From an uncultured Eubacteriales bacterium (GTDB lineage: Bacteria; Bacillota; Clostridia; Christensenellales; Aristaeellaceae), in the NCBI GenBank assembly GCA_902790495.1, contig CADASK010000027.1, positions 1 through 56,793 of the forward strand: 56,793 nucleotides of DNA, in the 5' to 3' direction. Position numbers and translations under genes: made by a program. Below are positions 2,792-56,615 of the stretch, piece by piece (position 1 is the stretch's first letter; each line of letters opens with the position of its first letter). Under the pieces are notes generated by a model, which saw nothing but the letters and a program-made list of their open reading frames with translations, did no database searches and was not told the DNA's origin.

Positions 2792-2849
2792 ATTCCGCGC
2801 CTGCGGGCGCGGGCAGGGGGCTTTGCGGTCGCCCCCTGCACCCCTTCGC
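2792..2849 (+). repeat. Family A repeat, copy 1
   Basis: Stem I CCGCGCC-TGCG-GGCGCGG; stem II GCAGGGGGC/GCCCCCTGC around loop TTTGCGGTC; tail ACCCCTTCGC. It sits between coaD and the downstream coiled-coil gene, so it should be part of their mRNA. Confidence 0.9.
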
Positions 2850-2878
2850 TTGCTATCATCAGTTGAAATTTCAGCTTT

Positions 2879-3373
2879 TTAGCCCTGGAACTTCGCCAGC
2901 ACCTCAGGGATCAGCGCCTCCGGGACGAAGCCGGTCAGGTCGCAGCCGTAGGAGGCCATCTCGCGCACCGAGGACGAGGAGATGGCGGTGTGCTCGGGCC
3001 TCGCCATCAGGAACACGGTCTCGATCTCCGGGGCGAGGCGCTGGTTGATCTGCGCCAGCTCGCGCTCGCTCTCAAAGTCGCAGGCGGCGCGCAGCCCCCG
3101 GAGCATCGCGCAGGCGTGCACCTGCCGGGCGAAGGCGGTGGTCAGCCCCGCGAAGCTGGTGGCCTCCACGTTGGGGATGCCGGCGCAGGCGCGGCGGATC
3201 ATGTCGACGCGCTCCTCCCAGGTGAAGCAGCCGGGCTTGGTGGGGTGGCGGAGCACCGCCACGATGACGCGGTCGTAGAGGGAGGCGGCGCGGCGGATGA
3301 TGTCGAGGTGGCCTTCGGTGATGGGGTCGAAGCTACCAGGGTAGATGCAGATTCTCTCTGCGGGCGTGGTCAT
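2879..3373 (-). CDS. coaD: Phosphopantetheine adenylyltransferase
   Basis: Transfers AMP from ATP to 4'-phosphopantetheine, the fourth step of coenzyme A synthesis. The 164 residues match the family length. The nucleotidyltransferase signature GSFDPITEGHLDII (T-x-G-H) lies at 13-26, LRGLRAACDFESE near 91 binds pantetheine, and the adenylate motif ISSSSVRE near 130 completes the set. Asn of the usual TNGH is Glu here, which is tolerated. The GGAGG site is about 13 bases from the ATG, rather far, but no later start would keep GSFDP. It lies downstream of rsmD, a common pairing. Confidence 0.97.
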   Translation of the reverse strand: MTTPAERICIYPGSFDPITEGHLDIIRRAASLYDRVIVAVLRHPTKPGCFTWEERVDMIRRACAGIPNVEATSFAGLTTAFARQVHACAMLRGLRAACDFESERELAQINQRLAPEIETVFLMARPEHTAISSSSVREMASYGCDLTGFVPEALIPEVLAKFQG

Positions 3374-3401
3374 GGTGTTTGTTTATCCTCCGATTGCAGG
3401 G

Positions 3402-3459
3402 GTTCCGCGCCTGCGGGCGCGGCCAAAGGGCTTTGCGATCGCCCTTTGGAAACCTTCGC
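3402..3459 (+). repeat. Family A repeat, copy 2
   Basis: Stem I CCGCGCC/GGCGCGG; stem II CCAAAGGGC/GCCCTTTGG around TTTGCGATC; tail AAACCTTCGC. Directly abuts copy 3 with no spacer but has a different stem II. Confidence 0.92.
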
Positions 3460-3517
3460 GTTCCGCGCCTGCGGGCGCGGGCAGGGGGCTTTGCGGTCGC
3501 CCCCTGCACCCCTTCGC
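3460..3517 (+). repeat. Family A repeat, copy 3
   Basis: Stem I as in copy 2; stem II GCAGGGGGC/GCCCCCTGC around TTTGCGGTC; tail ACCCCTTCGC. Tandem with copy 2, each exactly 58 bp, between rsmD and coaD. Confidence 0.92.
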
Positions 3518-3539
3518 AGCGCCTGTTTCGGCAAGTGAT

Positions 3540-4106
3540 TTATTCGGCAGCACTGGAGTTTAATGTCTGCGGGCGATAGATGCTGAGCCCTGCGTAGCCG
3601 TATTTGCGGGTGTCGGTCAGGGCCAGTTCCGGGGTGACGCGACTGGGCTTGTTGGCCTCGTGCTCCACGATGACCTGGCCGTCCTCGGCCAAGAGGGGCA
3701 GCAGGGCGGCGGTGACCTCCGTGAGGTCGGTCATGGCATAGGGCGGATCGAGGAAGACGAGGTCGAAGCGCGCGCCCTCGCGCTGCAGGGTGTCCACGGC
3801 GCGCTCCCAGGGACAGAGCAGGATGCGGCACCGGTCGGTGAAGCCGAGGCTCTCCGCGTTCTGCCGCTGGCACAGGTGGGCGGGCCGTGCCTTGTCCACC
3901 AGCACGGCCATGGATGCGCCGCGGCTGAGGGCCTCGAAGGAGAGCGCGCCGCTGCCGGCGAACAGATCCAGCACCCGCGCGTCATACACGCTGTGGCCAA
4001 GGATATTGAAGAGGTTCTCCCGCACGCGGTCGAGGGTCGGGCGCGTGTCCATGCCCTTGGGGGCCTGGAGCGTCCGGGAGCGGGCGGTTCCGGCGATGAT
4101 GCGCAT
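3540..4106 (-). CDS. rsmD: 16S rRNA (guanine966-N2)-methyltransferase
   Basis: SAM-dependent methylation of G966 of 16S rRNA on the assembling 30S subunit. The 188 residues match the family. N-terminal MRIIAGTARSRTL and RPTLDRVRENLFNIL are typical of RsmD, the SAM loop is LDLFAGSGALSFEALSRG at 47-64, and the N2-methyltransferase tetrad DPPY lies near 120. The downstream neighbour is coaD, as in many Firmicutes. Confidence 0.96.
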   Translation of the reverse strand: MRIIAGTARSRTLQAPKGMDTRPTLDRVRENLFNILGHSVYDARVLDLFAGSGALSFEALSRGASMAVLVDKARPAHLCQRQNAESLGFTDRCRILLCPWERAVDTLQREGARFDLVFLDPPYAMTDLTEVTAALLPLLAEDGQVIVEHEANKPSRVTPELALTDTRKYGYAGLSIYRPQTLNSSAAE

Positions 4107-4121
4107 GTCGTCTCCTGCCGA

Positions 4122-4949
4122 TCAGTTCAGTTGCTTGGGGGTGGAGGCGGCGCGGGCCTTCTTGGCCCTGGCGCTCCGCTTTTCACGGCGCTTGTTGGCG
4201 GCGGCGATGTCCGTGTGGACACGGGTGCGCTCCTGCACGCCGCGGGTGTAGCCCCAGCCGTAGCTCAGGCCGGGCAGCAACACCAGCAGGGGAGAGAACC
4301 GCTCGAACAGCAGCAGGAGATCCGCGTTCTCCGAGCCGATGAGGTTCACCCAGGGCAGCAGCTCCACGCGGGTGATGATGCGCAGCACATCCGTCACGGT
4401 CATGTGCTGCTGCGTGGTGTAGGCCGAGACCGCCGTGGCGAAGTCGGGATCCTCCGCGAGGGTGCCCAGCCAGGAGGGCAGAGCGCCGGCGGTGGTCATC
4501 TGCCGGGTGGCGGTCAGGGCGAGACCCAGGGCCACCAGGAACAGCGGCAGGCTGCCGATGAGGCCGATCAGGAAGCCCTTTGCGGGGTGGAAGCACAGCG
4601 AGCGGTCCTTGGCCGTCACGGTCTCCCCGCGCTCCTGGCGGCGGTACATGATCTCGCCCTGGTTGACGGCCACGGCGCCGTTGGCGCGGCCGCTGGCGCT
4701 GAACAGCTGCCAGGTGAGCACCAGCAGCACCACGTTCAGCGCGATGCGCAGGGGCGCGATGTCGATCATCAGGGCTGTGGCCGCGATCAGGTAGACGAAG
4801 GCGGTCAGGGCCAGCATGCCCAGCAGGATCAGGGCACTCTTCAGGGAATTGCCGTCAAAGGGCGCGCCGGTCAGGTAGGGCTTTTTCACAGGCGCGGCCT
4901 GCTTTTTCTTCTGGGCTGTCTTTGGATGCTGAGACTGTGTGACGGACAT
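4122..4949 (-). CDS. Membrane protein of unknown function
   Basis: 275 residues. A Lys/Gln-rich N-terminus is followed by two helices (about 35-80: LKSALILLGMLALTAFVYLI and LRIALNVVLLVLTW), a third near 135 (FLIGLIGSLPLFLVALGLAL), a predicted outside loop and a fourth hydrophobic stretch near 225 (FSPLLVLLPGLSYGWGY), then a very basic tail (NKRREKRSARAKKARAA). I recognise no family. The ATG 12 codons upstream is rejected because GGGAG precedes MSVTQSQH. It lies between alr and rsmD on the same strand, with short gaps. Confidence 0.75.
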   Translation of the reverse strand: MSVTQSQHPKTAQKKKQAAPVKKPYLTGAPFDGNSLKSALILLGMLALTAFVYLIAATALMIDIAPLRIALNVVLLVLTWQLFSASGRANGAVAVNQGEIMYRRQERGETVTAKDRSLCFHPAKGFLIGLIGSLPLFLVALGLALTATRQMTTAGALPSWLGTLAEDPDFATAVSAYTTQQHMTVTDVLRIITRVELLPWVNLIGSENADLLLLFERFSPLLVLLPGLSYGWGYTRGVQERTRVHTDIAAANKRREKRSARAKKARAASTPKQLN

Positions 4950-4977
4950 ATGGTTCTCCCGTAGTTGAATTTTGATT

Positions 4978-6087
4978 TTATTCATCGCGCCACACTCGGC
5001 GCACGCGCCCGGTGGCGGCCAGCAGCACCTCGTAGGAGATGGTGCCGCTCCAGCGGGCGATGTCCTCGGCGGTGACGGTTTCGCTGCCGTCCTCGCCGAG
5101 CAGCACGGCGGTATCCCCGGCCTTCACCCCGGGGATGTCGGTGACGTCGGCCATCATCTGATCCATGCAGATGCGCCCGACGATGGGGGCCCGCTGGCCG
5201 TGGATGAGCACGGTGGCCCCGCCGGTGGCCGCGCGGTGGTAGCCGTCGCCGTAGCCGCAGGCCACGGTGGCGATGCGCATGGGGGTCTCCGCCCGGAAGA
5301 TGCAGCCGTAACTGACCGCGTCGCCCGGGGCGATGTCCTTGACGTGGGTGATCTCCGCCTCCCAGCGCATGCAGGGCTTCAGCGGCAGATCGGTGGCGAC
5401 GGGCGGATAGCCGTAGAGGCTGATGCCCATGCGCACCATGTCGAAGGCGGCCTCGGGCATCAGGCGGTGGATGGCGGCGGAGTTTGCGCAGTGGCGCAGC
5501 AGGCCGTCCGGCAGCAGGGCTGTCAGCTCCTCGAAGCGCCTGAGCTGGGCGTGGGTGAAGCTCAGGTCGACGCCGTCCGCGTCGGCAAAGTGGGTGAAGA
5601 CGCCGGTCAGGCGCACCGAGGGATGGGCGGCGAAGGCCTCGCGCAGGGCGATGACCTCCTCCGGCGTCCGCGCGCCGATGCGGCCCATGCCGGTGTCGAG
5701 CTTGACGTGGGCGTCCAGGGGCTGGCCGGCCTCGCGGGCGGCCTCGTCGGCCTGGGCGACTTGCTCAGGCGTGTAGAGGGCGAGGGTGATGTGGTGCCGC
5801 GCGGCCGCCGCCATGGCGCGGGGATTCGAGCCGCCGAGCACCAGGATGGGCGCATCGATGCCCGCCTCGCGCAGCTCGACGCCCTCCTCCACACAGGCCA
5901 CCGCCAGCCAGTCGGCGCCCGCTTCGAGGACGGCCCGGGCCGTCTGCACCGCGCCGTGACCGTAGGCGTCTGCCTTGACGACGGCCATCAGGCGCGCGGA
6001 CGCAGGCACGGCGGAGCGGATCAGCCGGGTGTTTTCCCGCAGCTGCGCGAGGTTGATAACGCGCAGTTGTCTGCCATAATCGTTCGT
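4978..6087 (-). CDS. alr: Alanine racemase, start codon abnormal
   Basis: PLP enzyme making D-alanine for peptidoglycan. The PLP lysine lies in VVKADAYGHGA near residue 35, with THFADADGVDLSFTHAQ near 165, MVRMGISLYGYPP near 213, the catalytic tyrosine in DAVSYGCIF, GYGDGYHRA near 276 and RICMDQMMADVTDIP near 300. From the proposed start it has 369 residues, the family length. The problem is the start. No ATG, GTG or TTG lies at the expected place. An ACG (6085-6087) follows AGGCAGG by eight bases and would give (M)NDYGRQLRVINL. The open frame runs back to an ATG at 6187-6189, but that stretch is a family A repeat. Either ACG initiates, or an ATG was lost. Confidence 0.88.
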   Translation of the reverse strand, partial: TNDYGRQLRVINLAQLRENTRLIRSAVPASARLMAVVKADAYGHGAVQTARAVLEAGADWLAVACVEEGVELREAGIDAPILVLGGSNPRAMAAAARHHITLALYTPEQVAQADEAAREAGQPLDAHVKLDTGMGRIGARTPEEVIALREAFAAHPSVRLTGVFTHFADADGVDLSFTHAQLRRFEELTALLPDGLLRHCANSAAIHRLMPEAAFDMVRMGISLYGYPPVATDLPLKPCMRWEAEITHVKDIAPGDAVSYGCIFRAETPMRIATVACGYGDGYHRAATGGATVLIHGQRAPIVGRICMDQMMADVTDIPGVKAGDTAVLLGEDGSETVTAEDIARWSGTISYEVLLAATGRVRRVWRDE

Positions 6088-6114
6088 GGTGATCGCCTGC
6101 CTTGTTTGGTGAGA

Positions 6115-6219
6115 GTTCCGCGCCTGCGGGCGCGGGGAGGGGGCTTTGCGATCCTGTCGCTGCCGCTTTCGCCTCACTGAAAACTCCACACTGTGGAGTT
6201 TTCCGGGCGTTCGGCGCCT
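6115..6219 (+). repeat. Family A repeat, composite copy 4
   Basis: Stem I CCGCGCC/GGCGCGG, then GGAGGGGGCTTTGCGATC, then an inserted block with hairpin GAAAACTCCAC-ACT-GTGGAGTTTTC and ending in CGGGCGTTCGGCGCC. The 3' strand of stem II is missing. The inserted block matches that beside rpoN (54992-55098). Confidence 0.85.
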
Positions 6220-6255
6220 GCCAGGCGAGGAGTCGTAACGTGATCTAAGTATACT

Positions 6256-7044: not shown

Positions 7045-7082
7045 TTGCTCATCTCCCTCTGTTGCGGGTTGCCTTCAGCGAT

Positions 7083-7111
7083 ATTTTATTGTAATCATTG
7101 TTAAATGTCAA
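7083..7111 (-). promoter_or_regulatory. Promoter of the SH3 protein gene
   Basis: Minus strand TTGACA (7106-7111), 17 bp, TAAAAT (7083-7088), about 40 bp ahead of the start codon. Confidence 0.7.
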
Positions 7112-7164
7112 CCAGAGAGCCCATATTTTTGTCACAAAGGGTCGCGTTTTTGCCCGCAAAAACG

Positions 7165-7252: not shown

Positions 7253-7366
7253 GATTTCGCCGCCTGCGGAGGGTTATCACCCAATTCCTCACTGAAATCA
7301 TGCCAAAGGGCATGATTTCCGGGCGTTCGGAATCCAGAGTTTTCCGATCGCCTCTGGACTCTTCGG
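7253..7366 (+). repeat. Family A repeat, rearranged copy 5
   Basis: Begins with half of stem I (GATTTCGCCGCCTGCGG), continues into the inserted-hairpin block with new arms GAAATCATGCC and GGGCATGATTTC, then a stem II CCAGAG/CTCTGG around TTTTCCGATCGC and tail ACTCTTCGG. Scrambled, but the hairpin stays perfectly paired. Apart from the SH3 promoter and the terminator, 7045-7432 holds nothing else. Confidence 0.75.
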
Positions 7367-7432: not shown

Positions 7433-8782
7433 TTACCTCACCAGACAGGGCTTCTTGTGGTCGTACTTCCACCCGGGAATCAGGTACTGCATGGCGACGG
7501 AGTCGTCGCGGTCGTGGGTCGGCAGGCTGTTGTAGAGGTGGTTGGCCTCCTCCACGCGGGCCATGTTCAGAGTCACGCCGAGGCCGGGCTTCTTCGGCAC
7601 CTGCAGCTTGCCGCCGATAATCTGCGGGGTGTCCTCCAGCAGATTCTGGCCGTCCTGCCAGATCCAGTGGGTGTCCAGCGGGGCCACGCGGCCCACCGCC
7701 GCCGCGCCGACCTGGGCGAAGGCCGCCAGGGTGATGTCGAAGTGGTTGTTGCTGTGGATGCCGAAGGTGAGGCCCCAGGTGTCCAGCAGCTGGCTCATGC
7801 GCACCGCGCCGTCAAAGCCCCAGAAGTGGGGGTCGGCGAGGATGATGTCGCAGGCGTTGAGGCTCACGGTGTGGTAAAACTGCCGCCAGTCCGTGGCGAT
7901 CATGTTGGTGGCCACCTGGAACTGGGTCGCGTTCTTGAATTCGCGCATGATCTCGCGGCCGCTGAAGCCCGCCTCGGGGCCGCAGGGATCCTCCATGTAG
8001 GTGACGATGCCGTGCATGTCCCGGCACAGGTCGATGGCTTCCTTCAGGCTCCACGCGCCGTTGGGGTCGATGTTGACCCGGGCGTCGGGGAAGCGCTTCT
8101 TCACTGCGCGGACGGCCTCCATCTCCTCCTCGCCCCGGAGCACGCCGCCCTTGAGCTTGAAGTTGCGCATGCCGTACTTCTCGGCGACGGCCTCGGCCTC
8201 CTCCACGATGCGCGCGGGGGTCAGGATCTCCTCGCGGCGCAGGCGGAACCAGGGGTCAGCGCTGTCGCTCTCGTCGAGGTACTGCATCGCGCCGGCGGGG
8301 GTTTTGCCCTTGTCCGAGACATAGAAGAGGTAGCCCAGCACCTCGACCTCGTCCCGCTGCTGGCCCTCACCGAGCAGCTGACACATGGGCACCTCGAGGA
8401 ACTGGCCCAGCAGGTCGAGCATGGCGCACTCAATGGCCCATTCGCTGCGCACCACGTACTTGAGCTTGGTGATATCCAGGGTCTGGATGCCCTCGCTGGC
8501 GTCGTCGGCGTGGGGATCAATGGCCTTGTGGATGCGCTGCAGCACCTCGCGGCCCTTGGAGATGGGCATGCCCACCACCAGGGGCGTCATGGCGACGAGG
8601 CCGTCGTGGGTGTAATCGCCGCCATGGATTTCGCCGATGCCGGTGTGGCCCGCGCTGTCCTTGAGGATCACCAGGTTGCGGGTGAAGCAGGGGGCGTGGC
8701 AGCCGGAGAGGGTCATGAGCATGCTGTCATAGCCCGCGACGGGGATGACTTGCATGGAGGTGATGACAGGAATGTTGTTCAT
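7433..8782 (-). CDS. Glucarate-dehydratase-like enolase-superfamily enzyme (paralogue 1)
   Basis: 449 residues, aligning end to end with glucarate dehydratase. It keeps the KxK pair (NFKLKGG near 204), the metal ligands in NIDPNGAW near 235 and YMEDPCG near 260, ATNMIATDW near 290 and the acid/base histidine in HSNNHFD near 340. The known reaction is dehydration of D-glucarate or L-idarate to 5-dehydro-4-deoxy-D-glucarate. It is clearly more diverged from E. coli GudD than the second paralogue at 47.6 kb, so its substrate may be a different or modified acid sugar. It is the last gene of the TTT/esterase operon, 10 bp after the metallo-hydrolase. Confidence 0.88.
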   Translation of the reverse strand: MNNIPVITSMQVIPVAGYDSMLMTLSGCHAPCFTRNLVILKDSAGHTGIGEIHGGDYTHDGLVAMTPLVVGMPISKGREVLQRIHKAIDPHADDASEGIQTLDITKLKYVVRSEWAIECAMLDLLGQFLEVPMCQLLGEGQQRDEVEVLGYLFYVSDKGKTPAGAMQYLDESDSADPWFRLRREEILTPARIVEEAEAVAEKYGMRNFKLKGGVLRGEEEMEAVRAVKKRFPDARVNIDPNGAWSLKEAIDLCRDMHGIVTYMEDPCGPEAGFSGREIMREFKNATQFQVATNMIATDWRQFYHTVSLNACDIILADPHFWGFDGAVRMSQLLDTWGLTFGIHSNNHFDITLAAFAQVGAAAVGRVAPLDTHWIWQDGQNLLEDTPQIIGGKLQVPKKPGLGVTLNMARVEEANHLYNSLPTHDRDDSVAMQYLIPGWKYDHKKPCLVR

Positions 8783-8792
8783 GGATAATACC

Positions 8793-18270: not shown

Positions 18271-18471
18271 ATGAAGGAGAAGATCCATCCCAATTACGGC
18301 AAGTGCATCGTTCGCTGCGTGTGCGGTGAGACGTTCGAGACCGGTTCCACAAAGAAGGAATTGAAGGTCGATATTTGCTCGAAGTGCCATCCCTTCTATA
18401 CCGGCAAGCAGAAGCTGGTGGATACCGGCGGACGCGTCGATCGCTTCAAGAAGCGTTTTGGCATGGAATAA
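18271..18471 (+). CDS. rpmE: 50S ribosomal protein bL31
   Basis: 66 residues, normal for the zinc-binding (C+) form: [12 protein letters not shown] start, then C-x-C (16, 18) and C-x2-C (36, 39) that hold one zinc, and the HPFYTGKQK motif. Binds the large subunit at the central protuberance. GAGGTG lies eight bases before the ATG; the longer open frame upstream is not used. It has its own promoter and terminator. Confidence 0.97.
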
Positions 18472-18479
18472 GCCCGAAT

Positions 18480-18512
18480 CAGAGCGCCGCAATCGGTGCT
18501 CTGTTTTGTTAT
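18480..18512 (+). terminator. rpmE terminator
   Basis: CAGAGC (18480-18485) pairs with GCTCTG (18498-18503), followed by TTTTGTTATT. Confidence 0.75.
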
Positions 18513-18558
18513 TGTGACTCACGTTCACAGGGGTGCCGCGCCTGCTTCCACGCGGCGA

Positions 18559-18616
18559 GCGAAGGGTTGTCAGGGGCGATCGCAAAGCCCCTGACCCGCG
18601 CCTGCAGGCGCGGAAT
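18559..18616 (-). repeat. Family A repeat, copy 6
   Basis: Reverse orientation. Stem I CCGCGCC-TGCA-GGCGCGG; stem II GTCAGGGGC/GCCCCTGAC; tail AACCCTTCGC. A decayed fragment of another unit (CCGCGCCTGC) lies just upstream at 18536-18558. Confidence 0.9.
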
Positions 18617-18629
18617 CTTCTGCGCAGGA

Positions 18630-18687
18630 GATTTCGCCGCCTGCGGGCGGCGACCAGAGGCTTTCCGATCGCCTCTGGACTCTTCGG
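18630..18687 (+). repeat. Family A repeat, copy 7
   Basis: Stem I CGCCGCC/GGCGGCG; stem II CCAGAGGC/GCCTCTGG around TTTCCGATC; tail ACTCTTCGG. Head to head with copy 6 in the rpmE-DUF1385 gap. Confidence 0.92.
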
Positions 18688-18783
18688 CCGCGTCCTTTAC
18701 TTTGGGCTTCGCAAAGCCCCTGCGAACGACTTAATAAAAGAAACTTTATTATCATCACATTTTGCGAAGGGAGTGAACCTCTT

Positions 18784-21275: not shown

Positions 21276-21336
21276 GATTTCGCCGCCTGCGGGCGGCGAC
21301 CAAAGGGCTTTGCGATCGCCCTTTGGAAACCTTCGC
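21276..21336 (+). repeat. Family A repeat, copy 8
   Basis: Stem I CGCCGCC/GGCGGCG; stem II CCAAAGGGC/GCCCTTTGG around TTTGCGATC; tail AAACCTTCGC. A decayed reverse fragment (GGCGGCGGCGAAAC) precedes it near 21210-21232. Confidence 0.9.
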
Positions 21337-25450: not shown

Positions 25451-25508
25451 GCGAAGGCTTGCAAAGGGCGATCGCAAAGCCCTTTGCCCGCGCCCGCAGA
25501 CGCGGAAC
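25451..25508 (-). repeat. Family A repeat, copy 9
   Basis: Reverse orientation. Stem I CCGCGTC/GGCGCGG (one wobble); stem II GCAAAGGGC/GCCCTTTGC; tail AAGCCTTCGC. Confidence 0.9.
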
Positions 25509-27541: not shown

Positions 27542-27599
27542 CCCGAAGAGTCCAGAGGCGATCGGAAAGCCTCTGGTCGCCGCCCGCAGGCGGCGAAAT
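27542..27599 (-). repeat. Family A repeat, copy 10
   Basis: Reverse orientation. Stem I CGCCGCC/GGCGGCG; stem II CCAGAGGC/GCCTCTGG around TTTCCGATC; tail ACTCTTCGGG. Confidence 0.9.
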
Positions 27600-27621: not shown

Positions 27622-27719
27622 ATTCCGCGCCTGCGGGCGCGGGCAGGGGGCTTTGCGATCGGTCCGGGGCTGCCGCCCGCTCTCCGCTGAAAACTCCATA
27701 ACATGGAGTTTTCCGGGCG
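27622..27719 (+). repeat. Family A repeat, composite copy 11, 3' truncated
   Basis: Stem I CCGCGCC/GGCGCGG and GCAGGGGGCTTTGCGATCG, then the inserted block (GGTCCGGGGCTGCCGCCCGC) with hairpin GAAAACTCCAT-AAC-ATGGAGTTTTC. The closing strand of stem II is lost; only a remnant CCCCCTGC follows at about 27724. Confidence 0.85.
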
Positions 27720-27750
27720 AAATCCCCCTGCAAAGGAGTCATCAATTCCT

Positions 27751-28685: not shown

Positions 28686-28743
28686 GTTCCGCGCCTGCGG
28701 GCGCGGGCAAGGGGCTTTGCGATCGCCCCTTGCAACCCTTCGC
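28686..28743 (+). repeat. Family A repeat, copy 12
   Basis: Stem I CCGCGCC/GGCGCGG; stem II GCAAGGGGC/GCCCCTTGC around TTTGCGATC; tail AACCCTTCGC. This stem II version is unique in the window and fully paired. Confidence 0.92.
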
Positions 28744-31158: not shown

Positions 31159-31283
31159 GCGAAGGGGTCCCGGGGGCTCGGAGCGCCTGGAAAACGCCAT
31201 GTTATGGCGTTTTCAGCGGAGAGCGGGCGGCAGCCCCGGACCGATCGCAAAGCCCCCGGGTCGCCGCCGGCAGGCGGCGAAAT
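31159..31283 (-). repeat. Family A repeat, composite copy 13
   Basis: Reverse orientation. Stem I CGCCGCC-TGCC-GGCGGCG; stem II CCCGGGGGC/GCCCCCGGG closing over the inserted block; hairpin GAAAACGCCAT-AAC-ATGGCGTTTTC; tail ACCCCTTCGC. The 3' end nearly touches the AGCS stop codon. Confidence 0.9.
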
Positions 31284-31285: not shown

Positions 31286-32791
31286 TCAGTCTTTCCTGGC
31301 TTCCTGCTCCTTCTGAATCTCCGGAATCGCGGAATACATCGGCTTCAGACTAGGCTGACTGCCGGAGATGATCCGGTCGCTGTAGTTCTTCGTGATCTTC
31401 ACCACCAGCCCGCTCAGACACACCACGCCGATCAGGTTCGGGATGGCCATCAGGCCGTTGAAGGTGTCGCTCAGGTCGATGGCCAGGGAGACGTCCATCG
31501 TGGCGCTGACCGCGACCATGCCGATGAAGAGCACCTTGTAGACGATGGTGGACTTGGTGCCGAAAAGGTACTCCCAGGCCTTGGAGCCGTAGAAGCTCCA
31601 GCCGAGGATGGTGGTGAAGGCGAACAGGCACACGGCCACCGCCAGGAAGATGCCGCCGAAGGTGCCGAAGCTCTTCGTGAAGGCCTCGGTGGCCAGGCCC
31701 AGCTTGCTGGCGCCGGAGATAGACGCGCCTGTCTCCAGATCCACTACGCCGGTGGTGAGGATCACCAGGGCCGTGCAGGTGCACACGATGATGGTGTCCG
31801 CGAAGACCTCAAAGATGCCCCAGAGGCCCTGCACCACGGGCTCCTTCACGTTGGAAGCGGAGTGCACCATCACCGAGGAGCCGAGGCCGGCCTCGTTGGA
31901 GAACACGCCGCGCTTGAAGCCCCAGGTCATGGCCTGGGCGATGACCGCGCCGCCCACGCCGCCGGCGGCCGACTTGAAGTTGAACGCGCCCTTGAAGATG
32001 GCCGCAAAGGCGGCGGGCACCTTCGTGATGTTCATGAGGATGATGATCAGCGAGCCGATGACGAAGAACACCGCCATGAAGGGCACGATGCGCTCGTTGG
32101 TGGTGGCGATGCGCCGCAGGCCGCCGATGATGACCAAGGCCAGCAGCACGATGAGCACGATGCCCGTCACCAGGTTGACCGTGGAGGCCTGCGCGGGCAC
32201 CAGGGTGTTGATGCTCTCGGTGATGGAGGCGACCTGGCCCATGTTGCCGATGCCGAAGGAGGCGAACACCGCGAAGAAGGAGAACAGCACCGCCAGCACC
32301 GGGCCGACGGCCTTGCCGTACTTCATGCGGCCCACGCCGTCCTTGAGGTAGTACATCGCGCCGCCGCTCCACTCGCCCTTCTGGTTCCGGCGGCGGAAGT
32401 AGATGCCCAGCACGTTCTCGGAATAGTTGGTCATCATGCCGACGACGGCGGCCAGCCACATCCAGAACACCGCGCCCGGGCCGCCCATGGTGATGGCGTA
32501 GGCCACGCCCGCGATGTTGCCCGTGCCGATGGTGGCGGACAGGGCCGTGCACAGGGCCTGGAACTGGGAGATGGCGTGCTGGTCGTGGCTGTGGCGGATG
32601 CCCTTCTCCTTGCGGAACAGGCCGCCGATGGTGTTCTTCCACATGTGGCCGAAGCGGCGGAACTGGAAGAAGCGGGTCAGCACCGTCATCAGGATGCCCG
32701 TGCCGATGAGGAGGGTCAGGGCCGGGACGCCCCAGACGACGTCGTTGACGGCGGTGTTGAGGGAGGCGAGGGTCTGTGTGAAGCTGTTCAT
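31286..32791 (-). CDS. Sodium:alanine/glycine symporter (AGCS family)
   Basis: 501 residues, about 11 helices. AGCS signatures: ALSATIGTGNIAGVAYAITMGGPG (in two parts near 88-111), SENVLGIYFRRRN near 128, KRGVFSNEAGLGSS near 298. Imports glycine or alanine with sodium. A tandem glycine riboswitch on the same strand 280-450 bp upstream predicts glycine as the cargo or as the signal. The start MNSFTQT has AAAGGTT about nine bases ahead. The upstream open frame is repeat-derived and not coding. Confidence 0.95.
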   Translation of the reverse strand: MNSFTQTLASLNTAVNDVVWGVPALTLLIGTGILMTVLTRFFQFRRFGHMWKNTIGGLFRKEKGIRHSHDQHAISQFQALCTALSATIGTGNIAGVAYAITMGGPGAVFWMWLAAVVGMMTNYSENVLGIYFRRRNQKGEWSGGAMYYLKDGVGRMKYGKAVGPVLAVLFSFFAVFASFGIGNMGQVASITESINTLVPAQASTVNLVTGIVLIVLLALVIIGGLRRIATTNERIVPFMAVFFVIGSLIIILMNITKVPAAFAAIFKGAFNFKSAAGGVGGAVIAQAMTWGFKRGVFSNEAGLGSSVMVHSASNVKEPVVQGLWGIFEVFADTIIVCTCTALVILTTGVVDLETGASISGASKLGLATEAFTKSFGTFGGIFLAVAVCLFAFTTILGWSFYGSKAWEYLFGTKSTIVYKVLFIGMVAVSATMDVSLAIDLSDTFNGLMAIPNLIGVVCLSGLVVKITKNYSDRIISGSQPSLKPMYSAIPEIQKEQEARKD

Positions 32792-32837: not shown

Positions 32838-32960
32838 GTTCCGCGCCTGCGAGCGCGGGCAAAGGGCTTTGCGATCGGTCCGGGGCTGCCGCCCGCTCTC
32901 TGCTGAAAACGCCATAACATGGCGTTTTCCAGGCGCTCCGAGCCCTTTGCAAACCTTCGC
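32838..32960 (+). repeat. Family A repeat, composite copy 14, inside the riboswitch leader
   Basis: Stem I CCGCGCC/GAGCGCGG (one mismatch); stem II GCAAAGGGC/GCCCTTTGC closing over the inserted block; hairpin GAAAACGCCAT/ATGGCGTTTTC; tail AAACCTTCGC. Lies between the riboswitch terminator and the AGCS start codon. Confidence 0.9.
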
Positions 32961-33078: not shown

Positions 33079-33243
33079 ACTCTGTCCTTTTGCCTGAGAG
33101 ATTCACCGGCTCGCCGGCTTTGCACCTTCGGCACCCGATGCGGGATCGGGCTTCTCCAGAGTGTCATCCACGCACAGTCTGCGCACCTGAGAGTTTCGCT
33201 CCTTCGGTCACCCCGCAAGCGGGGTGTTTCCTGCGCGCTTCCA
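33079..33243 (-). promoter_or_regulatory. Tandem glycine riboswitch
   Basis: The minus strand carries two aptamers. The distal one has GAATCTCTCAGGCAAAAGG and CCGAAGGTGCAAAGCC, hallmarks of the second glycine aptamer; the proximal one has GGAGCGAAACTCTCAGG and GACCGAAGG. Followed by an intrinsic terminator and then the AGCS symporter gene. Binding of glycine should switch read-through; a symporter would normally be an off- or on-target depending on whether it imports or exports, which sequence alone does not settle. Confidence 0.93.
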
Positions 33244-37338: not shown

Positions 37339-37396
37339 GTTCCGCGCCTGCGGGCGCGGGCAGGGGGCTTTGCGATCGCCCCCTGCACCCCTTCGC
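37339..37396 (+). repeat. Family A repeat, copy 15
   Basis: Stem I CCGCGCC/GGCGCGG; stem II GCAGGGGGC/GCCCCCTGC around TTTGCGATC; tail ACCCCTTCGC. Converges with copy 16 across a 47-bp gap. Confidence 0.92.
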
Positions 37397-37443: not shown

Positions 37444-37503
37444 GCGAAGGTTTCCAAAGGGCGATCGCAAAGCCCTTTGGTCGCCGCCGGCAGGCGGCGA
37501 AAT
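37444..37503 (-). repeat. Family A repeat, copy 16
   Basis: Reverse orientation. Stem I CGCCGCC-TGCC-GGCGGCG; stem II CCAAAGGGC/GCCCTTTGG; tail AAACCTTCGC. Ends 3 bp before the pyk stop. Confidence 0.92.
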
Positions 37504-40547: not shown

Positions 40548-40605
40548 GATTTCGCTGCCTGCGGGCAGCGACCAGAGGCTTTCCGGTCGCCTCTGGACTC
40601 TTCGG
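40548..40605 (+). repeat. Family A repeat, copy 17
   Basis: Stem I CGCTGCC/GGCAGCG (third stem I version); stem II CCAGAGGC/GCCTCTGG around TTTCCGGTC; tail ACTCTTCGG. Confidence 0.92.
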
Positions 40606-40645: not shown

Positions 40646-40703
40646 GTTCCGCGCCTGCAGGCGCGGGCAGGGGGCTTTGCGATCGCCCCCTGCACCCCTT
40701 CGC
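40646..40703 (+). repeat. Family A repeat, copy 18
   Basis: Stem I CCGCGCC-TGCA-GGCGCGG; stem II GCAGGGGGC/GCCCCCTGC; tail ACCCCTTCGC. Followed by TTTTGGCAGCTATT, which also links family A to family B in the second composite. Confidence 0.92.
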
Positions 40704-40945: not shown

Positions 40946-41003
40946 ATTTCGCTGCCTGCGGGCAGCGACCAGAGGCTTTCCGATCGCCTCTGGACTCTTC
41001 GGG
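40946..41003 (+). repeat. Family A repeat, copy 19
   Basis: Stem I CGCTGCC/GGCAGCG; stem II CCAGAGGC/GCCTCTGG around TTTCCGATC; tail ACTCTTCGG. Confidence 0.92.
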
Positions 41004-41047: not shown

Positions 41048-41106
41048 GTTCGCCGCCTGCGGGCGGCGACCAAAGGGCTTTGCGATCGCCCTTTGGAAAC
41101 CTTCGC
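41048..41106 (+). repeat. Family A repeat, copy 20
   Basis: Stem I CGCCGCC/GGCGGCG; stem II CCAAAGGGC/GCCCTTTGG; tail AAACCTTCGC. Ends about 95 bp before the groES -35. Confidence 0.92.
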
Positions 41107-41618: not shown

Positions 41619-41676
41619 CCCGAAGAGTCCAGAGGTGATCGGAAAGCCTCTGGTCGCTGCCCGCAGGCAGCGAAAT
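41619..41676 (-). repeat. Family A repeat, copy 21, between groES and groEL
   Basis: Reverse orientation. Stem I CGCTGCC/GGCAGCG; stem II CCAGAGGC/(C)ACCTCTGG with one changed base; tail ACTCTTCGG. A fragment resembling family C (ACCTTCCCTCAAGGGAAAGG) follows at about 41690. Confidence 0.9.
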
Positions 41677-47624: not shown

Positions 47625-48953
47625 TTACCTCACCAGGCAGGGCTTCTTGTTGTCGAACTTCCAGCCGGGAATCAGGTACTGCATGCCGATGGCGTCGTTG
47701 CGGGCGCCCAGGCAGTTCTCCAGGTAGACCTTGTTGGCCTTCTTGACCTGCTCCAGATCCACGTCGATGCCCAGGCCGGGCTTCTTGGGCAGATCGATGC
47801 AGCCGTCCACGATCTGCAGGGGCTCCTTGGTCAGGCGCTCGCGGCCCTCCTGCCAGATCCAGTGGGTGTCGATGCCGTTCATCTTGCCGGGGATGGCGGC
47901 CGCGCACTGGGTCACCATGGCCAGGCTGATGTCGAAGTGGTTGTTGGAGTGGCAGCCCCACATGAGGCCGAAGTCATTGCACAGCTGGCCCACGCGGACG
48001 GAGCCGTTCATGGTCCAGAAGTGGGGATCGGCCAGCGGGATATCCACGCTCTGCAGGGCGATGGTGTGGCGCATCTGCCGCCAGTCGGTGTTGATCATGT
48101 TGGTGGCGGTGGGCATCATGGTGGCCTTGCGGAACTCGGCCATCACCTCGCGGCCGGAGAAGCCGTCCTCGGCGCCGCAGGGATCCTCCATGTAGGCCAG
48201 CACCTTCTTCAGGTCGGGCGCGACCTCGAGGGCCTCCTTCAGGCTCCAGCAGCCGTTGGGGTCCAGGTCGACGCGGGCGTCCGGGAAGGCCTTCTTGATG
48301 GCGGTGACGGCCTTGACCTCCTCCTTGGGAGCCAGCACGCCGCCCTTGAGCTTGAAGTCCACGAAGCCGTACTTCTCCACCGTGGCCTTGGCCAGCTCGA
48401 CGATGGCGTCGGGGGTCAGGGCCTCCTCATTGCGCAGGCGGTACCAGGCGCAGTCGCTGTCCTCCTCGCCCATATAGGGGAGGTCGGTCTTGTGGCGGTC
48501 GCCGATGTAGAACAGGTAGCTGAGGAACTGCACGCGCTCGCGCTGAATGCCGTCGCCCATCAGGGCCGCGGCGGGCACCTCGAGGTACTTGCCCAGCAGG
48601 TCCAGCAGGGGCGCTTCGATGGCGGTCACCACGTGCACGCCGGTGCGCAGGTCGAAGGTCTGCAGGCCGCGCACGTCGTCCTTGATGTTGGCGTTCAGCC
48701 AGGCGCGCACCTTGTTCAGGGTGCCCTTGTAGTCGGAGATGGGGGTGCCGAGCACCAGGTCCTTCACGTCCTCCAGGGCCTTGGTGATCTTCTGGCCGCC
48801 GGGTACCTCACCCACGCCCAGGTTGCCAGTGGAATCCTCGAGGACCACCACGTTGCGGGTGAAATAGGGAGCGTGTGCGCCGGAGAGGTTCAGCTCCATG
48901 CTGTCATGGCCGGCGACGGGGTAGACGTCCATTTTAACAACCTGTGGAATCAT
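47625..48953 (-). CDS. gudD: Glucarate dehydratase (paralogue 2)
   Basis: 442 residues, very close to E. coli GudD throughout ([35 protein letters not shown]). Catalytic set complete: DFKLKGG near 200, DLDPNGCW near 230, YMEDPCGAE near 255, [12 protein letters not shown] near 285 and [12 protein letters not shown] near 333. Dehydrates D-glucarate or L-idarate to 5-dehydro-4-deoxy-D-glucarate. GGAGG lies eight bases before the ATG. In the same block as garD, garK and garR. Confidence 0.94.
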
Positions 48954-49007: not shown

Positions 49008-49065
49008 GCGAAGGGGTGCAGGGGACGATCGCAAAGCCCCCTGCCCGCGCCCGCAGGCGCGGAAC
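49008..49065 (-). repeat. Family A repeat, copy 22, between garK and gudD
   Basis: Reverse orientation. Stem I CCGCGCC/GGCGCGG; stem II GCAGGGGGC/GTCCCCTGC (one G-U in RNA); tail ACCCCTTCGC. Confidence 0.9.
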
Positions 49066-50265: not shown

Positions 50266-50388
50266 GTTCCGCGCCTGCGGGCGCGGGTCAGGGGCTTTGC
50301 GGTCGGTCCGGGGCTGCTGCCCGCTCTCCGCTGAAAACTCCATAACATGGAGTTTTCCGGGCGCTCCGAGCCCCCTGCACCCCTTCGC
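50266..50388 (+). repeat. Family A repeat, composite copy 23
   Basis: Stem I CCGCGCC/GGCGCGG; stem II CAGGGGC/GCCCCCTG (one C extra) over the inserted block; hairpin GAAAACTCCAT-AAC-ATGGAGTTTTC; tail ACCCCTTCGC. Followed within 50 bp by family B copy 2. Confidence 0.9.
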
Positions 50389-51485: not shown

Positions 51486-51553
51486 GATGTTTTTCCTCCT
51501 GATTCTTAGGTGTGAAAGAGTAAATGCTTACAAACAATAAACGTCAGCTGGAG

Positions 51554-51600
51554 GTTCCGCGCCTGTGGGCACGGGCAGGGGCTTTGCGTCCCCGCATCCC
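51554..51600 (+). repeat. Family A repeat, decayed copy 24
   Basis: Stem I CCGCGCC/GGCACGG with one mismatch, then GCAGGGGC-TTTGCGT-CCCCGC; tail lost. One of the few copies in which pairing has degraded. Confidence 0.7.
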
Positions 51601-51663
51601 TCGTGCGCCGTTTATGGTTTTGTGAATGGAATCATTTAGGAACAGCTTTGCTTCAAGAGGACG

Positions 51664-51722
51664 GCCGAAGGTTTGCAAAGGGCGATCGGAAAGCCCTTTG
51701 CCCGCGCCCGCAGGCGCGGAAT
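51664..51722 (-). repeat. Family A repeat, copy 25
   Basis: Reverse orientation. Stem I CCGCGCC/GGCGCGG; stem II GCAAAGGGC/GCCCTTTGC around TTTCCGATC; tail AAACCTTCGGC. Confidence 0.9.
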
Positions 51723-53566: not shown

Positions 53567-53590
53567 GGTCCAACACTCCTTTTTTTGTTC

Positions 53591-54901
53591 TCAGGGCAGC
53601 CACGGCGTCGTGAGCGTTCCCTGCGGGTCAAAGGTGATATCTTCAGGCGCGTCCAGCGCCGTAAGACCTTGGTATTTGCCGGCCAGCACGTCGGCGTAGT
53701 AGGCCTCGGAGAGCATGATCTGGCCGATGTGCAGGCTGTTCTGGATGCGGATGATCCGGGGATGATCCTTGTCGATGCGGTTGCAGGTGCGCACGCAGAA
53801 CTGGATGGCCTCCTTGTCCGTGCTCATCACGCAGGGCACCATGGCGGACTTGATGACCGTGGAGGTCATGCAGTTGGTGTACATGGCGTCGGCGTCAATC
53901 TGGTCGAAGATGCGGCGCGTGATCGCGCTGGCCAGGCCGATGCCCAGGGAATTTCCGTGGCTCTCCTCCGTCAGGTCCAGGAAGCAGGTGCGCTGCACCT
54001 GGACGCCGCCCGTGGCGTAGGGCGTGGAGAAGGTGCCGGTGATGTTGGGGTCGACGCCCGTGCCGGAGAAGTTCTTGCCGATGCGGTCGACGATCAGCAC
54101 GTCGCCCTCGCCCACCAGGATGGAGGGCATATTGGCGAAGGCGATCTTCAGCAGCTCGGGCTCGCGCTCCAGGATCTTCTCCGCCGGGATGGCCTCGAAC
54201 ATCAGGGTCTGGTCGTAGGCGTTCTCCAGGCAGGGGATGGCGAAGAGGATCTTGCCGGTGCCCAGGGTGACCTTCGCCATGGTCGGGATGTTTTTGGCGA
54301 TGATGTCCATGCCGTCGGAGTGCACCTGCTCGGCGCCCTTCTGCTTGCCCAGGCCGACGGTCATCATCTTGCAGGGGCCGCTCTCCACGGGGCCGCGGAA
54401 GGCGTTGTGGGGCTTGAGGCGGCAGGAGAGGATCACGCCGTCGGACTCCCAGGCGTTCCTGTCCATGTACACGGGCTTGCCCAGCTCGCTGCGGCCCAGC
54501 AGCACGGTCTCCATGGAGGAGCGGATCTCGCAGCCCATGGCTTCCTCGGTGATGCCGTAGCCCGCCAGCAGCTCCCTCTGGCCCTCGGCGGTCGCGCCGC
54601 CGTGGCTGCCCATGGCCGGCACGATGAAGGGCACGGCCCCGCGGGACTTCACGTAGGCCACCACGGAGCGGGTGATTTCGTCCACGTTGCGGATGCCGCG
54701 GCTGCCCGCCGTGATGGCGATGCGCATGCCGGGCTGGACGCGCTCGCCCATGCCGCTGCGGTTGATCTCGTCGAAGATGGCTTTCTCGATGTTCTCCCGG
54801 TCGATGTGGGCGTCCGGGAACTGCTGGGACGCGTGGAACATGCGCGGCAGGGCCACGTCCTTCAAAAGCCGGGAAACGGTTCCATCGTTTCTGATTCTCA
54901 T
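53591..54901 (-). CDS. LarA-like (DUF2088) nickel-pincer racemase homologue
   Basis: 436 residues. N-terminal LarA domain with ITAGSRGIRNVDEI near 63, PAMGSHGGATAEGQ near 95 and KPHNAFRG near 163; C-terminal domain from about 280. Family members racemise or epimerise 2-hydroxy acids with a nickel-pincer nucleotide; the larB, larC and larE cofactor genes are not in the window. As first gene of the aldarate block it may interconvert sugar-acid or glycerate stereoisomers. AGGAG lies five to six bases before the ATG. Confidence 0.85.
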   Translation of the reverse strand: MRIRNDGTVSRLLKDVALPRMFHASQQFPDAHIDRENIEKAIFDEINRSGMGERVQPGMRIAITAGSRGIRNVDEITRSVVAYVKSRGAVPFIVPAMGSHGGATAEGQRELLAGYGITEEAMGCEIRSSMETVLLGRSELGKPVYMDRNAWESDGVILSCRLKPHNAFRGPVESGPCKMMTVGLGKQKGAEQVHSDGMDIIAKNIPTMAKVTLGTGKILFAIPCLENAYDQTLMFEAIPAEKILEREPELLKIAFANMPSILVGEGDVLIVDRIGKNFSGTGVDPNITGTFSTPYATGGVQVQRTCFLDLTEESHGNSLGIGLASAITRRIFDQIDADAMYTNCMTSTVIKSAMVPCVMSTDKEAIQFCVRTCNRIDKDHPRIIRIQNSLHIGQIMLSEAYYADVLAGKYQGLTALDAPEDITFDPQGTLTTPWLP

Positions 54902-54920
54902 GGTGTCTCCTGTCTGCGTG

Positions 54921-54974
54921 CCTTCCCCCTCTGGGGGAAGGTGTCATCGGGCTTGCCCGATGACGGATGAGGGT
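54921..54974 (+). repeat. Family C repeat, copy 3
   Basis: CCTTCCCCC-TCT-GGGGGAAGG, then TCATCGGGC-TT-GCCCGATGA in place of CGAGCC/GGCTCG, then CGGATGAGGG. The second stem differs from the 47.3-kb copies but stays paired. Confidence 0.85.
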
Positions 54975-54991
54975 TTTCTTGTTATCAAAGA

Positions 54992-55098
54992 GATTTCGCC
55001 GCCTGCGGGCGGCGACCAAAGGGCTTTGCGATCCTGTCGCTGCCGCTTTCGCCTCACTGAAAACTCCACACTGTGGAGTTTTCCTGGCGTTCGGCGCC
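54992..55098 (+). repeat. Family A repeat, composite copy 26
   Basis: Stem I CGCCGCC/GGCGGCG, then CCAAAGGGCTTTGCGATC, then the inserted block with hairpin GAAAACTCCAC-ACT-GTGGAGTTTTC, ending GGCGTTCGGCGCC exactly at the rpoN stop codon. Nearly the same insert as at 6115-6219. Confidence 0.88.
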
Positions 55099-56373
55099 CT
55101 ACCTTTTAAAACTAGAGTCAATTTCCATCTGCGCCCGGTACTTCGCCACCGTGCGGCGGGAAATGCTCACCCCGCGCTTCTCCAGCTCCTCGGCGATGGC
55201 CCGGTCGGAGAGCTTGCCGTTTTCCCGGCAGATCTCCCGGATCATCTCCTTGACGCTGGCCGTGCTCTCCCCGCCGGCCACCTCCTTCTGGAAGAAGTGG
55301 CTGAGCGGGTAGGTGCCCCGGGCGCAGTGGAGGTACTTGTTCTGGATGGCGCGGTAGACGGTGCTCTCGTGCACGTCCAGCTCCCGGGCGACGGTGTCGA
55401 TGCGCAGGGGCACCAGGCTGTACTGCCCCAGGAAGAAGGCCTGCTGCTCGCGCACGATGACGCGGGCCAGCTTCTCCATGGTGGTCTGGCGCATCTCCAC
55501 GGCGCGGATGAGCTGGGAGGCCGAGGACAGCATCTGCCGGGCGTAGGTCTGCTCCTCGCCCGTGAGGGAGCTGGCGAGGCGGCGGAAGTTTTCGTCCGCG
55601 CGGAAGGTCGGGTAGTAGTCGTTGTGAAAGAGGATGCTCAGCTGGCCCGCCGCGTCGGCCTCCACGGAGAACTCGGGCATGATGTACTGCACGGTCTCCT
55701 GACGGAGGGAGCAGGGCGCGGGGGTCAGGCTGCGGATGGTCTCCACGCACTGCTGCACGCGGGCCAGGGTCGCGCCGGTCTCCCGGGCAATCTGCCGGAT
55801 GTTGCCCCGGCCGATGTCCAGCAGGTGGACACGGATCAGGTCGTAGCAGAGGGGGTCGGCGTCCGCGCGCTCCCGCAGCTGCAGCTCCAGGCATTCCTCC
55901 ACGGTGCGCGCGCCGATGCCGGCGGGCTCCAGGGCCTGCACGGCCTCGAGGGCGCGGCGGGCGGTGTCCGGGCTGACCCCGGCGTCGGAGGCGAATTCCT
56001 CCAGGGACTGGGTCAGGTAGCCGCGGGGCGAGAGGGTGTGGAGCATGATCTCCGCCGTCCGGGCCGTGGAGGCGTCCAGGCCGCTGAGGCGCAGCTGCTG
56101 CTCCAGGTCGGCCATGGCTGTCTCCGGCGCGGCGGCGAGATCGGCGGTGGCGGTGTAATCGCCGCGGGAGGAGCTGTAGCGGGTTTTCACCTGCATGGCG
56201 TAGTCCTGGGCGGTTTTCTGCGGGGGCACGTACTCGAGGGCGGGGTTTTCCTGGATGGTTTTCAGCAGGTAGTCGCTCAGGCCCTCCAGGTCGAGGGAGA
56301 GGAGATGAATGGCTGTCTGCAGGCTTTGGGAGAGCTTTTGGCTTTGCTGCACCTCCAGGCGGGTCTCAGACAT
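55099..56373 (-). CDS. rpoN: RNA polymerase sigma-54 factor
   Basis: 424 residues. Region I is Gln-rich (QQSQKLSQSLQTAIHLLSLDLEGL), the core-binding region lies at about 90-270, a helix-turn-helix near 335-355 (RIDTVARELDVHESTVYRAI), and the RpoN box is SRRTVAKYRAQM near 405 (consensus ARRTVAKYRE). Directs transcription from -24/-12 promoters with an ATP-driven activator; none is encoded in the window. AAGGAGG precedes the ATG. It lies directly upstream of the aldarate block on the same strand. Confidence 0.95.
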   Translation of the reverse strand: MSETRLEVQQSQKLSQSLQTAIHLLSLDLEGLSDYLLKTIQENPALEYVPPQKTAQDYAMQVKTRYSSSRGDYTATADLAAAPETAMADLEQQLRLSGLDASTARTAEIMLHTLSPRGYLTQSLEEFASDAGVSPDTARRALEAVQALEPAGIGARTVEECLELQLRERADADPLCYDLIRVHLLDIGRGNIRQIARETGATLARVQQCVETIRSLTPAPCSLRQETVQYIMPEFSVEADAAGQLSILFHNDYYPTFRADENFRRLASSLTGEEQTYARQMLSSASQLIRAVEMRQTTMEKLARVIVREQQAFFLGQYSLVPLRIDTVARELDVHESTVYRAIQNKYLHCARGTYPLSHFFQKEVAGGESTASVKEMIREICRENGKLSDRAIAEELEKRGVSISRRTVAKYRAQMEIDSSFKR

Positions 56374-56390
56374 CTCTTCACCTCCTTGGT

Positions 56391-56512
56391 GTTCCGCGCC
56401 TGCGGGCGCGGGGAGGGGGCTTTGCGGTCGGTCCGGGGCTGCCGCCCGCTCTCCGCTGAAAACTTCATAACATGGAGTTTTCCGGGCGCTCCGAGCCCCT
56501 GGACCCTTCGGC
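56391..56512 (+). repeat. Family A repeat, composite copy 27
   Basis: Stem I CCGCGCC/GGCGCGG; stem II GGAGGGGGC against GCCCCTGG (imperfect); hairpin GAAAACTTCAT/ATGGAGTTTTC with one wobble; tail ACCCTTCGGC. Confidence 0.87.
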
Positions 56513-56557
56513 CGCCTCCTAAAACGGTAAGCGCATTTAAGAGAGAAAATGTTTGCT

Positions 56558-56615
56558 GCGAAGGGGTGGAGGGGGCGATCGCAAAGCCCCCTCCCCGCGC
56601 CCGCAGGCGCGGAAT
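56558..56615 (-). repeat. Family A repeat, copy 28
   Basis: Reverse orientation. Stem I CCGCGCC/GGCGCGG; stem II GGAGGGGGC/GCCCCCTCC; tail ACCCCTTCGC. The outer stem II pair differs from the GCAGGGGGC copies on both sides. Confidence 0.92.

Follow-up and report, generated by a model that had tools for sequence, protein, structure and literature searches.

The window analysed here is the whole 56,793-nucleotide contig CADASK010000027.1 (C27) from a 2.47-Mb draft genome of an uncultured Eubacteriales bacterium (G000; other genomes carry similar handles), and the gaps between its genes hold many copies of a small repeat, here named R1. According to a fuzzy two-hairpin search, whose resulting list was split into short and long forms by reading, the window contains 26 two-hairpin units (19 short and 7 long), a degenerate knot copy without stem I, and a decayed copy that belongs to repeat family D4 (Table 1). 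An earlier note on this DNA had counted about 28 copies in both orientations, which is a fair description, with units found on both strands. The core TTTSCGATC is matched 22 times in the window, compared with 0.69 matches expected, and none of 100 shuffles reached 22. Genome-wide, a 12-base core occurs 493 times (250 on the plus and 243 on the minus strand), and the same pattern read backwards, used as a control, gives 0; the many genomic copies anticipated in the earlier note are thus present. A covariance model of the kind it had proposed, built from 52 distinct cores and run on the window with E up to 0.1, reports 25 places, namely all 19 short units, 4 of the 7 long forms, the degenerate copy, and one hit of 22 nt at 31656 that lies within a gene call and is probably due to chance.

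As for the claim that the repeat never lies inside a confident gene, it holds nearly but not strictly. In 845,888 bases of G000, 10 of 185 units fall within gene calls, whereas 160 would be expected at random, and the window unit at 6147 lies 30 bases within the start of a gene call. Gene calls come from a hexamer model that was trained on G000 and used for the other genomes too; 10 calls were checked, and 10 of 10 hit Pfam families. The head-to-tail pair at 3403-3459 and 3461-3517, separated by one base, suggests where R1 units end.

Table 1. Copies of R1 in the window, with state of the equivalent gap in genome G010 where compared
Form	Position	Strand	Remarks
Short (stem I + pseudoknot)	2793..2849	+	
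Short	3403..3459	+	One base from next unit, head to tail
Short	3461..3517	+	
Long	6116..6216	+	Variant insert; 3′ end not recognised, end approximate
Degenerate pseudoknot	7334..7366	+	Without stem I
Short	18559..18615	-	G010 gap without units
Short	18633..18687	+	8-bp S1; CCGA/TCGG knot; G010 gap without units
Short	21279..21336	+	Missing from equivalent G010 gap
Short	25451..25507	-	G010 has unit at same place
Short	27543..27597	-	Absent in G010
Long	27623..27725	+	Tail not recognised, end approximate; absent in G010
Short	28687..28743	+	
Long	31159..31281	-	
Long	32839..32960	+	Absent in G010
Short	37340..37396	+	
Short	37444..37501	-	
Short	40551..40605	+	8-bp S1
Short	40647..40703	+	
Short	40948..41002	+	8-bp S1
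Short	41049..41106	+	
Short	41620..41674	-	Single S1 mismatch; gap before groEL-type gene
Short	49008..49064	-	Single G.U in S1
Long	50267..50388	+	
Decayed copy	51551..51607	+	Limits approximate
Short	51665..51721	-	CCGCGCC stem I carrying CCGA/TCGG knot
Long	54995..55096	+	Variant insert, end approximate
Long	56392..56511	+	
Short	56558..56614	-	

Comparative evidence strongly supports the reading that R1 encodes an RNA structure, namely a 5′ hairpin (stem I) followed by an H-type pseudoknot. The order of a short unit is stem I, S1 5′ arm, TTT, SCGR, TC, S1 3′ arm, A(n)C(m)T, and TCGS, where S1 (stem II of the earlier note) has 7-9 bp, loop L1 is UUU, the 4-bp S2 joins SCGR to UCGS, and loop L3 is A(n)C(m)U. 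Judged by sequence evidence, all elements that define an H-type pseudoknot are found: S1, S2 formed by pairing of loop and tail, and L3 spanning S1. The previously described double hairpin is therefore borne out as to its hairpins but incomplete, since stem II has a loop that pairs with the 3′ tail.

In five genomes, the S2 loop matches the tail in 168 of 171 short copies (GCGR with TCGC in 61, CCGR with TCGG in 107, and 3 exceptions). This count leaves out 78 anchors lacking a paired S1, of which many are long forms, as well as 4 close to stretch ends and 1 tailless anchor. A set of 52 distinct 37-mers was selected solely by three features: a [TC]CG[CG] tail at 9/6 spacing, GC preceding TTT, and 6 or more of the 9 S1 pairs. 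Every one of its 208 S2 cells is paired (52 of 52 sequences); at the outermost position 28 sequences have G-C and 24 have C-G. Eight S1 sequences of this alignment occur with both S2 alleles, matched every time, while two of the four S2 pairs are invariant and hence uninformative. Two-sided changes over the whole structure amount to 105 cells versus 41 in shuffles; selection on S1 pairs inflates the S1 figure, but not the S2 figure at the covarying pair. For stem I, 57 distinct sequences have 93.7% of cells paired, a percentage inflated by picking rows with at least 5 of 7 pairs, and contain 99 two-sided changes compared with 24.6 in shuffles (reached in 0 of 500). Stem II pairing is kept as well, with covariation seen in the alignment of distinct cores. 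The earlier proposal that pairing rather than primary sequence is maintained across copies stands, and both stems have more versions than were listed.

A feature not described in the earlier note is that the tail length follows the stem. L3 is equal to S1 minus 3 in 189 of 197 copies (S1/L3 classes 9/6, 8/5, and 7/4); of 213 short units, the other 16 have no tail in the searched place, as a rule with S1 shortened by a mismatch. In viral copies, discussed below, both 9/6 (25) and 9/7 (21) are common, so the rule is obeyed strictly by chromosomal copies and less so by viral ones. When single copies are folded with a program unable to form knots, both hairpins appear, at z-scores of −3.3 to −3.9 for three short units and −2.8 for one long unit. 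The stem I loop is TGCG in 235 of 303 parsed copies; a UNCG tetraloop was considered as proof of RNA and dropped, since other stem I loops break the UNCG rule. Pairing of the flanks into an outer helix, which looks striking in some copies, was also rejected: own flanks pair no better than mismatched ones (p of 0.13 to 0.37 near the unit in G000, with the lowest value, 0.06, in G002).

About one quarter of the units, again beyond the earlier description, belong to the long form, in which an extra hairpin is set into the knot. The first 453 kb hold 110 anchors, of which 69 are short and 6 of other kinds; the remaining 35 have an insert that separates SCGRTC from the S1 3′ arm. The insert is a hairpin with paired changes (GAAAACTCC..GGAGTTTTC, GAAAACGCC..GGCGTTTTC, and GAAAACAGTCC..GGACTGTTTTC) and lies between the S2 5′ strand and the S1 3′ strand, where a pseudoknot tolerates insertion. 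Basal S1 is still paired in most of the listed long copies, and anchors with the AAAAC motif of the insert have matching loop and tail in 46 of 48 cases with a readable tail; in 26 more the tail was not recognised.

The sequence of L3 also depends on that of S1. In 61 distinct S1/L3 pairs representing 306 copies, some double-counted through overlapping stretches, L3 tracks the S1 5′ arm in parallel, with C beside G in 208 of 214 positions and A or T beside A in 70 of 79. Mutual information is equal to 0.77 bits in parallel register 0 and does not exceed 0.27 in eleven other registers; when L3 is shuffled among pairs of equal length, the mean is 0.36 and the maximum 0.56, and the observed value is reached in 0 of 500 trials. 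Since a parallel strand is unable to form Watson-Crick pairs with the S1 5′ arm, base triples are the natural reading, and L3 would lie beside S1 as a third strand. One-sided changes indicate which kind of strand folds. G.U outnumbers A.C by 21 to 0 in S2, 14 to 4 in S1, and 19 to 6 in stem I, i.e. G.U is kept and A.C avoided, which argues that a single strand folds, because selection on both strands or on a cruciform would give equal counts. That strand may be either RNA or one DNA strand.

According to core counts, R1 is distributed very unevenly. Twelve congeners range from 2 to 532 cores (532, 493, 322, 101, 59, 40, and at most 12 in the others), and ranks given by the covariance model agree with these counts (model counts up to at least 150 per genome; G009 has 0 by model and 3 cores by pattern). 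Across the family (300 genomes), high counts are restricted to a few scattered genera (319 in G035, 198 in G282, and 118 in G044), and most genomes are near control counts. A stricter pattern, accepting the CC allele with its tail only, matches 7 of 396 genomes of the order, of which 6 are in the family and one (G489, with 3 matches) in another, and phylum-wide 1 of 398, which is G000 itself. The groEL loci of 80 named genomes (up to about 22 kb each) contain one core match in 3 cases and none in 77, so no named genome of high copy number was found. By the pattern counts, hardly any knots occur outside a single bacterial family and viral contigs. Five gaps were compared with their orthologues in G010, whose larger matched parts have 82-94% DNA identity; one gap has its unit in common with G010, and G010 lacks those of the other four. 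Together with copy numbers from 2 to 532 among congeners, this implies that R1 units spread or vanish quickly.

The same knot, mostly lacking stem I, appears in phage-like contigs at stop codons, which the earlier note had not reported. A viral scan yielded 52 stretches and a second pattern 54; 47 of the first 52 have at least one full knot. Over both sets, 49 viral knots are without stem I and 18 with it. Between codirectional genes, knots without stem I are sense in 38 cases and antisense in 8, and 30 of the 38 sense knots start −5 to 20 nt from the upstream stop. For knots with stem I the respective numbers are 11 and 4, and 1 of the 11 starts that close. Genes ending at most 40 nt before a knot hairpin number 39, or 38 after exclusion of L266:858-2243, whose hairpin has no matching tail. 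These 38 include 11 genes for the major head protein, 4 for the portal, 3 for the large terminase, 2 for the major tail protein, and 2 for HNH endonucleases; 7 belong to other named or unknown families and 9 have no PHROG match. Several of the contigs are near copies of each other, and ten of the 11 head proteins form six groups below 50% identity. Because the taxonomy of the knot is narrow, the hosts of these viruses are presumably members of the same bacterial family. That viral knots lie in sense orientation at the stop codons of virion genes suggests a role for them at the 3′ end of phage mRNA.

On the chromosome, convergent gaps hold units more often than other gaps in G000 (25 of 70 versus 117 of 548, p = 0.01), G001 (13 of 13 versus 11 of 100, with occupancy inflated because the stretches were chosen from the copy list), G002 (6 of 7 versus 15 of 51), and G035 (6 of 12 versus 0 of 52, in stretches taken blind). 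The unit order in convergent gaps of G001 and G035 is mostly plus, then minus.

The favoured reading, given a probability of about 0.5, is that a phage-type mRNA 3′-end pseudoknot became a REP-like chromosomal repeat (REP, repetitive extragenic palindrome). The knot without stem I would be an mRNA 3′-end element of phages of this family, located just behind virion genes and above all the capsid gene, where it may decide what becomes of the upstream message, either blocking its 3′-to-5′ decay or causing partial termination. Units with stem I would have spread in REP-like manner to about 490 chromosomal copies, most of them probably useless to the neighbour gene and kept where harm is small. The simplest way to read both sets of data jointly is that the RNA element is functional in phages and its chromosomal copies are REP-like passengers.

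Several results weigh against this reading, and the chromosomal evidence leans the other way: as regards placement, a stabiliser of mRNA 3′ ends, which would raise the level of an upstream message when in sense orientation, is favoured by the viral contigs and disfavoured by G035 and G000. In G000, units between codirectional genes are antisense in 85 cases and sense in 40 (p = 7e-5), which a 3′-end role does not predict. At a guess, a sense knot inside an operon may harm the downstream gene, which would leave the antisense majority, but the longer gaps that this predicts for sense units are not clearly seen (p = 0.17). Convergent gaps of G010 have no excess (2 of 18 versus 12 of 98 others). 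Knots of G035 lie 177-935 nt past the stop codon, with a T-tailed hairpin between stop and knot in 16 of 18 sense cases. These hairpins are likely terminators and precede the knots, so convergent placement in that genome speaks for a harmless site and against a role in that message. Knots without stem I in G120, from another genus, have mixed context (2 sense, 2 antisense, 1 convergent, 2 divergent, and 2 at an edge among 9 read). Finally, a full two-sided change occurs at just one S2 pair.

In a separate observation, stretch L188 of G035 (18350-18720) has a plus/minus knot pair, each knot flanked outside by a CCCCAAGCCC/GGGCTTGGGG hairpin and T-rich sequence, and each gene reaches its hairpin before the knot. 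As to whether R1 orientation follows replication, the counts are mixed. Units have the same orientation as the local majority gene strand in 69 cases and the opposite in 106 (p = 0.006), and the comparison with GC skew gives 72 to 103 (p = 0.02). Convergent and divergent gaps together give 25 to 25, and where genes run opposite to the majority, 10 of 16 units are nevertheless antisense to the genes.

Among the alternatives, the one that survives best, though rather doubtful, regards R1 as a purely selfish miniature element and its knot as a single-stranded DNA signal, whose hairpins a strand-specific nuclease or transposase would read before cutting where the loop SCGR pairs with the 3′ end TCGS. 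A comparable arrangement exists in IS200/IS605, where a guide pairs with the cleavage site. The unit seems to end at TCGS, as judged by the head-to-tail pair; its copy number is patchy, gaps gain or lose units, genes are avoided, knots of G035 lie beyond likely terminators, and G.T is tolerated in DNA too. However, no clean empty site was found among the five G010 gaps or by reading the joined flanks of 278 units, and the sense placement of viral knots at stop codons is left unexplained.

Known movers do not fit a selfish element either. The Y1/RAYT transposase (PF01797) has 0 matches in G000, in line with the earlier remark that no RAYT gene is visible here for a repeat broadly similar to REP or BIME (BIME, bacterial interspersed mosaic element), and is absent from G001, G002, G004, G010, G019, G035, G044, and G167. 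Ten of 28 genomes, of low as well as middle copy number, do have this transposase, including G282, G120, G278, G297, and G250 (36 to 198 cores); among genomes with at least 45 cores, it is absent from G000 and eight others and present in G282, G120, and G297. Reverse transcriptase is absent from G000, G001, G002, G010, and G035 and occurs in 5 of 23 genomes, including G044, G019, and G282. Both are lacking in the four highest-copy genomes, and with so patchy a distribution neither tracks R1.

A multi-copy gene as mover was considered as well and rejected, since among 728 calls in 846 kb no two proteins reach 70% identity, although the assembly may have collapsed such genes. Inverted doublets are the main unit of REPINs and BIMEs; close neighbour pairs of R1 units have the plus/minus arrangement in 27 of 37 cases in G001 and in 5 of 19 in G000, where most units are alone. 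In G001, spacers of some R1 doublets (L057, L058, and L059) contain a CCTCTCTGTCACTGCGGTGACATCTCCCCTTTCAGGGGAG-like second dispersed element, and many doublets of L051-L060 have common longer outer inverted ends, GGTTCTTCACG...CGTGAAGAACC, as if a larger mobile unit existed there.

Less probable still is that R1 copies are unusual transcription terminators or attenuators. Viral knots do follow stop codons and capsid genes, and phage T7 has a terminator after its capsid gene. An intrinsic terminator, however, has a U-run directly after its hairpin, whereas the R1 tail is A(n)C(m)TTCGS with later T-runs rare, and a T-run directly 3′ of the knot is exceptional (L252). In chromosomal gaps, ordinary hairpins with T-runs are separate sequences, and the distance to the next same-strand gene in viral contigs is usually 13 to 140 nt.

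A stimulator of stop-codon readthrough or frameshifting is very improbable: although a pseudoknot at the stop codon of a capsid gene resembles known recoding signals, open frames after the stop are short (medians of 20, 26, and 17 codons in the three frames for 34 cases, with a few long exceptions), and the spacing between knot and stop is not fixed. Equally remote is the idea of type III antitoxin RNAs or decoys of them, to which the R1 fold is alike, ToxI RNAs being H-type pseudoknots with base triples (PMC5086642); the toxin ToxN (PF13958) is absent from 10 of 11 genomes, including G000, G001, and G035, knot copies are dispersed, and the sole ToxN gene, in G002, is preceded by repeats unlike R1 as judged by eye, with none reported there by a tandem-repeat program. 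That locus (L063, 5440-6085) comprises the ToxN gene, the unlike repeats and a hairpin upstream, and an R1-like unit after it.

In comparison with known systems, R1 shares features with several. Phage late-operon processing or terminator hairpins, such as that of T7 after the capsid gene, likewise stand behind the capsid gene in a late operon, but they are plain, whereas R1 is a conserved knot with fixed loop and tail. With REP, REPIN, and BIME sequences and their RAYT (PMC3116915 and PMC3733652), R1 has in common hundreds of dispersed intergenic palindromic units, occurring as singles and inverted doublets, compensatory stem changes, and patchy copy number. It differs from them in its pseudoknot fold, the lack of Y1/RAYT in the richest genomes, and the core at viral stop codons. 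REPs of the GTAG kind bear that tetranucleotide at one end, and a Y1 (RAYT) transposase, often with the repeat on its flanks, is encoded in their genomes. Neither a GTAG nor a CGTC tag was found at the ends of R1 units, which read TTCC/TTTCG and CTTCGC/CTTCGG; CGTC REPs have a CGTC tag and a CCA-like tail and share with R1 the lack of a known transposase. ToxI and CptI (PMC5086642) are also small H-type pseudoknots with third-strand contacts, but form a tandem array before the ToxN gene, whereas R1 is dispersed in a genome without a ToxN match. As for the STAXI motif (RF01728), PMC2864571 describes, in similarity to R1, a repeated pseudoknot that lies partly near mobile-DNA genes; unlike R1, it stands in tandem in two or three copies near genes of DNA-handling proteins in Enterobacteriales. 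RF01728 has no match in the Rfam scan of the window or in the two stretches scanned with relaxed limits.

The earlier note had allowed for a described repeat family with a known role, and Rfam scans of the window returned no such match; at the gathering threshold the sole matches are two glycine riboswitch aptamers. With relaxed limits, one stretch and one phage copy were scanned and gave nothing near a cut-off, the best match on the stretch being MIR1437 (45 bits versus a cut-off of 168, on both strands). No description of R1 was found in the literature searched, most subscription journals lying outside that search.

Tentatively, and at somewhat less than even odds, R1 may represent a new RNA class, in which a parallel third strand runs along a small pseudoknot and follows a code (C beside G, A or U beside A) that covariation makes readable. 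Such an element, which arose as a phage late-gene 3′ signal or was captured by one, would have been turned into a genome-wide mobile repeat without the known REP enzymes. One fold would then join dispersed REP-like repeats and phage RNA signals, which are usually kept apart. Hundreds of natural copies per genome are a rare data set, in which third-strand contacts appear to leave a readable covariation mark. REP biology gains a case without RAYT in the richest genomes, and the function and mover of such repeats become newly testable.

Apart from R1, the two riboswitch aptamers are in tandem at 33079-33243 on the minus strand, upstream of a sodium:alanine symporter gene (31286-32791). The window also has a pair of enolase-superfamily paralogues (7433-8782 and 47625-48932) with about 70-75% DNA likeness over repeated stretches. 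The nearest named relatives of its GroEL are uncultured Clostridia, several of them from rumen or gut samples (best 91%).

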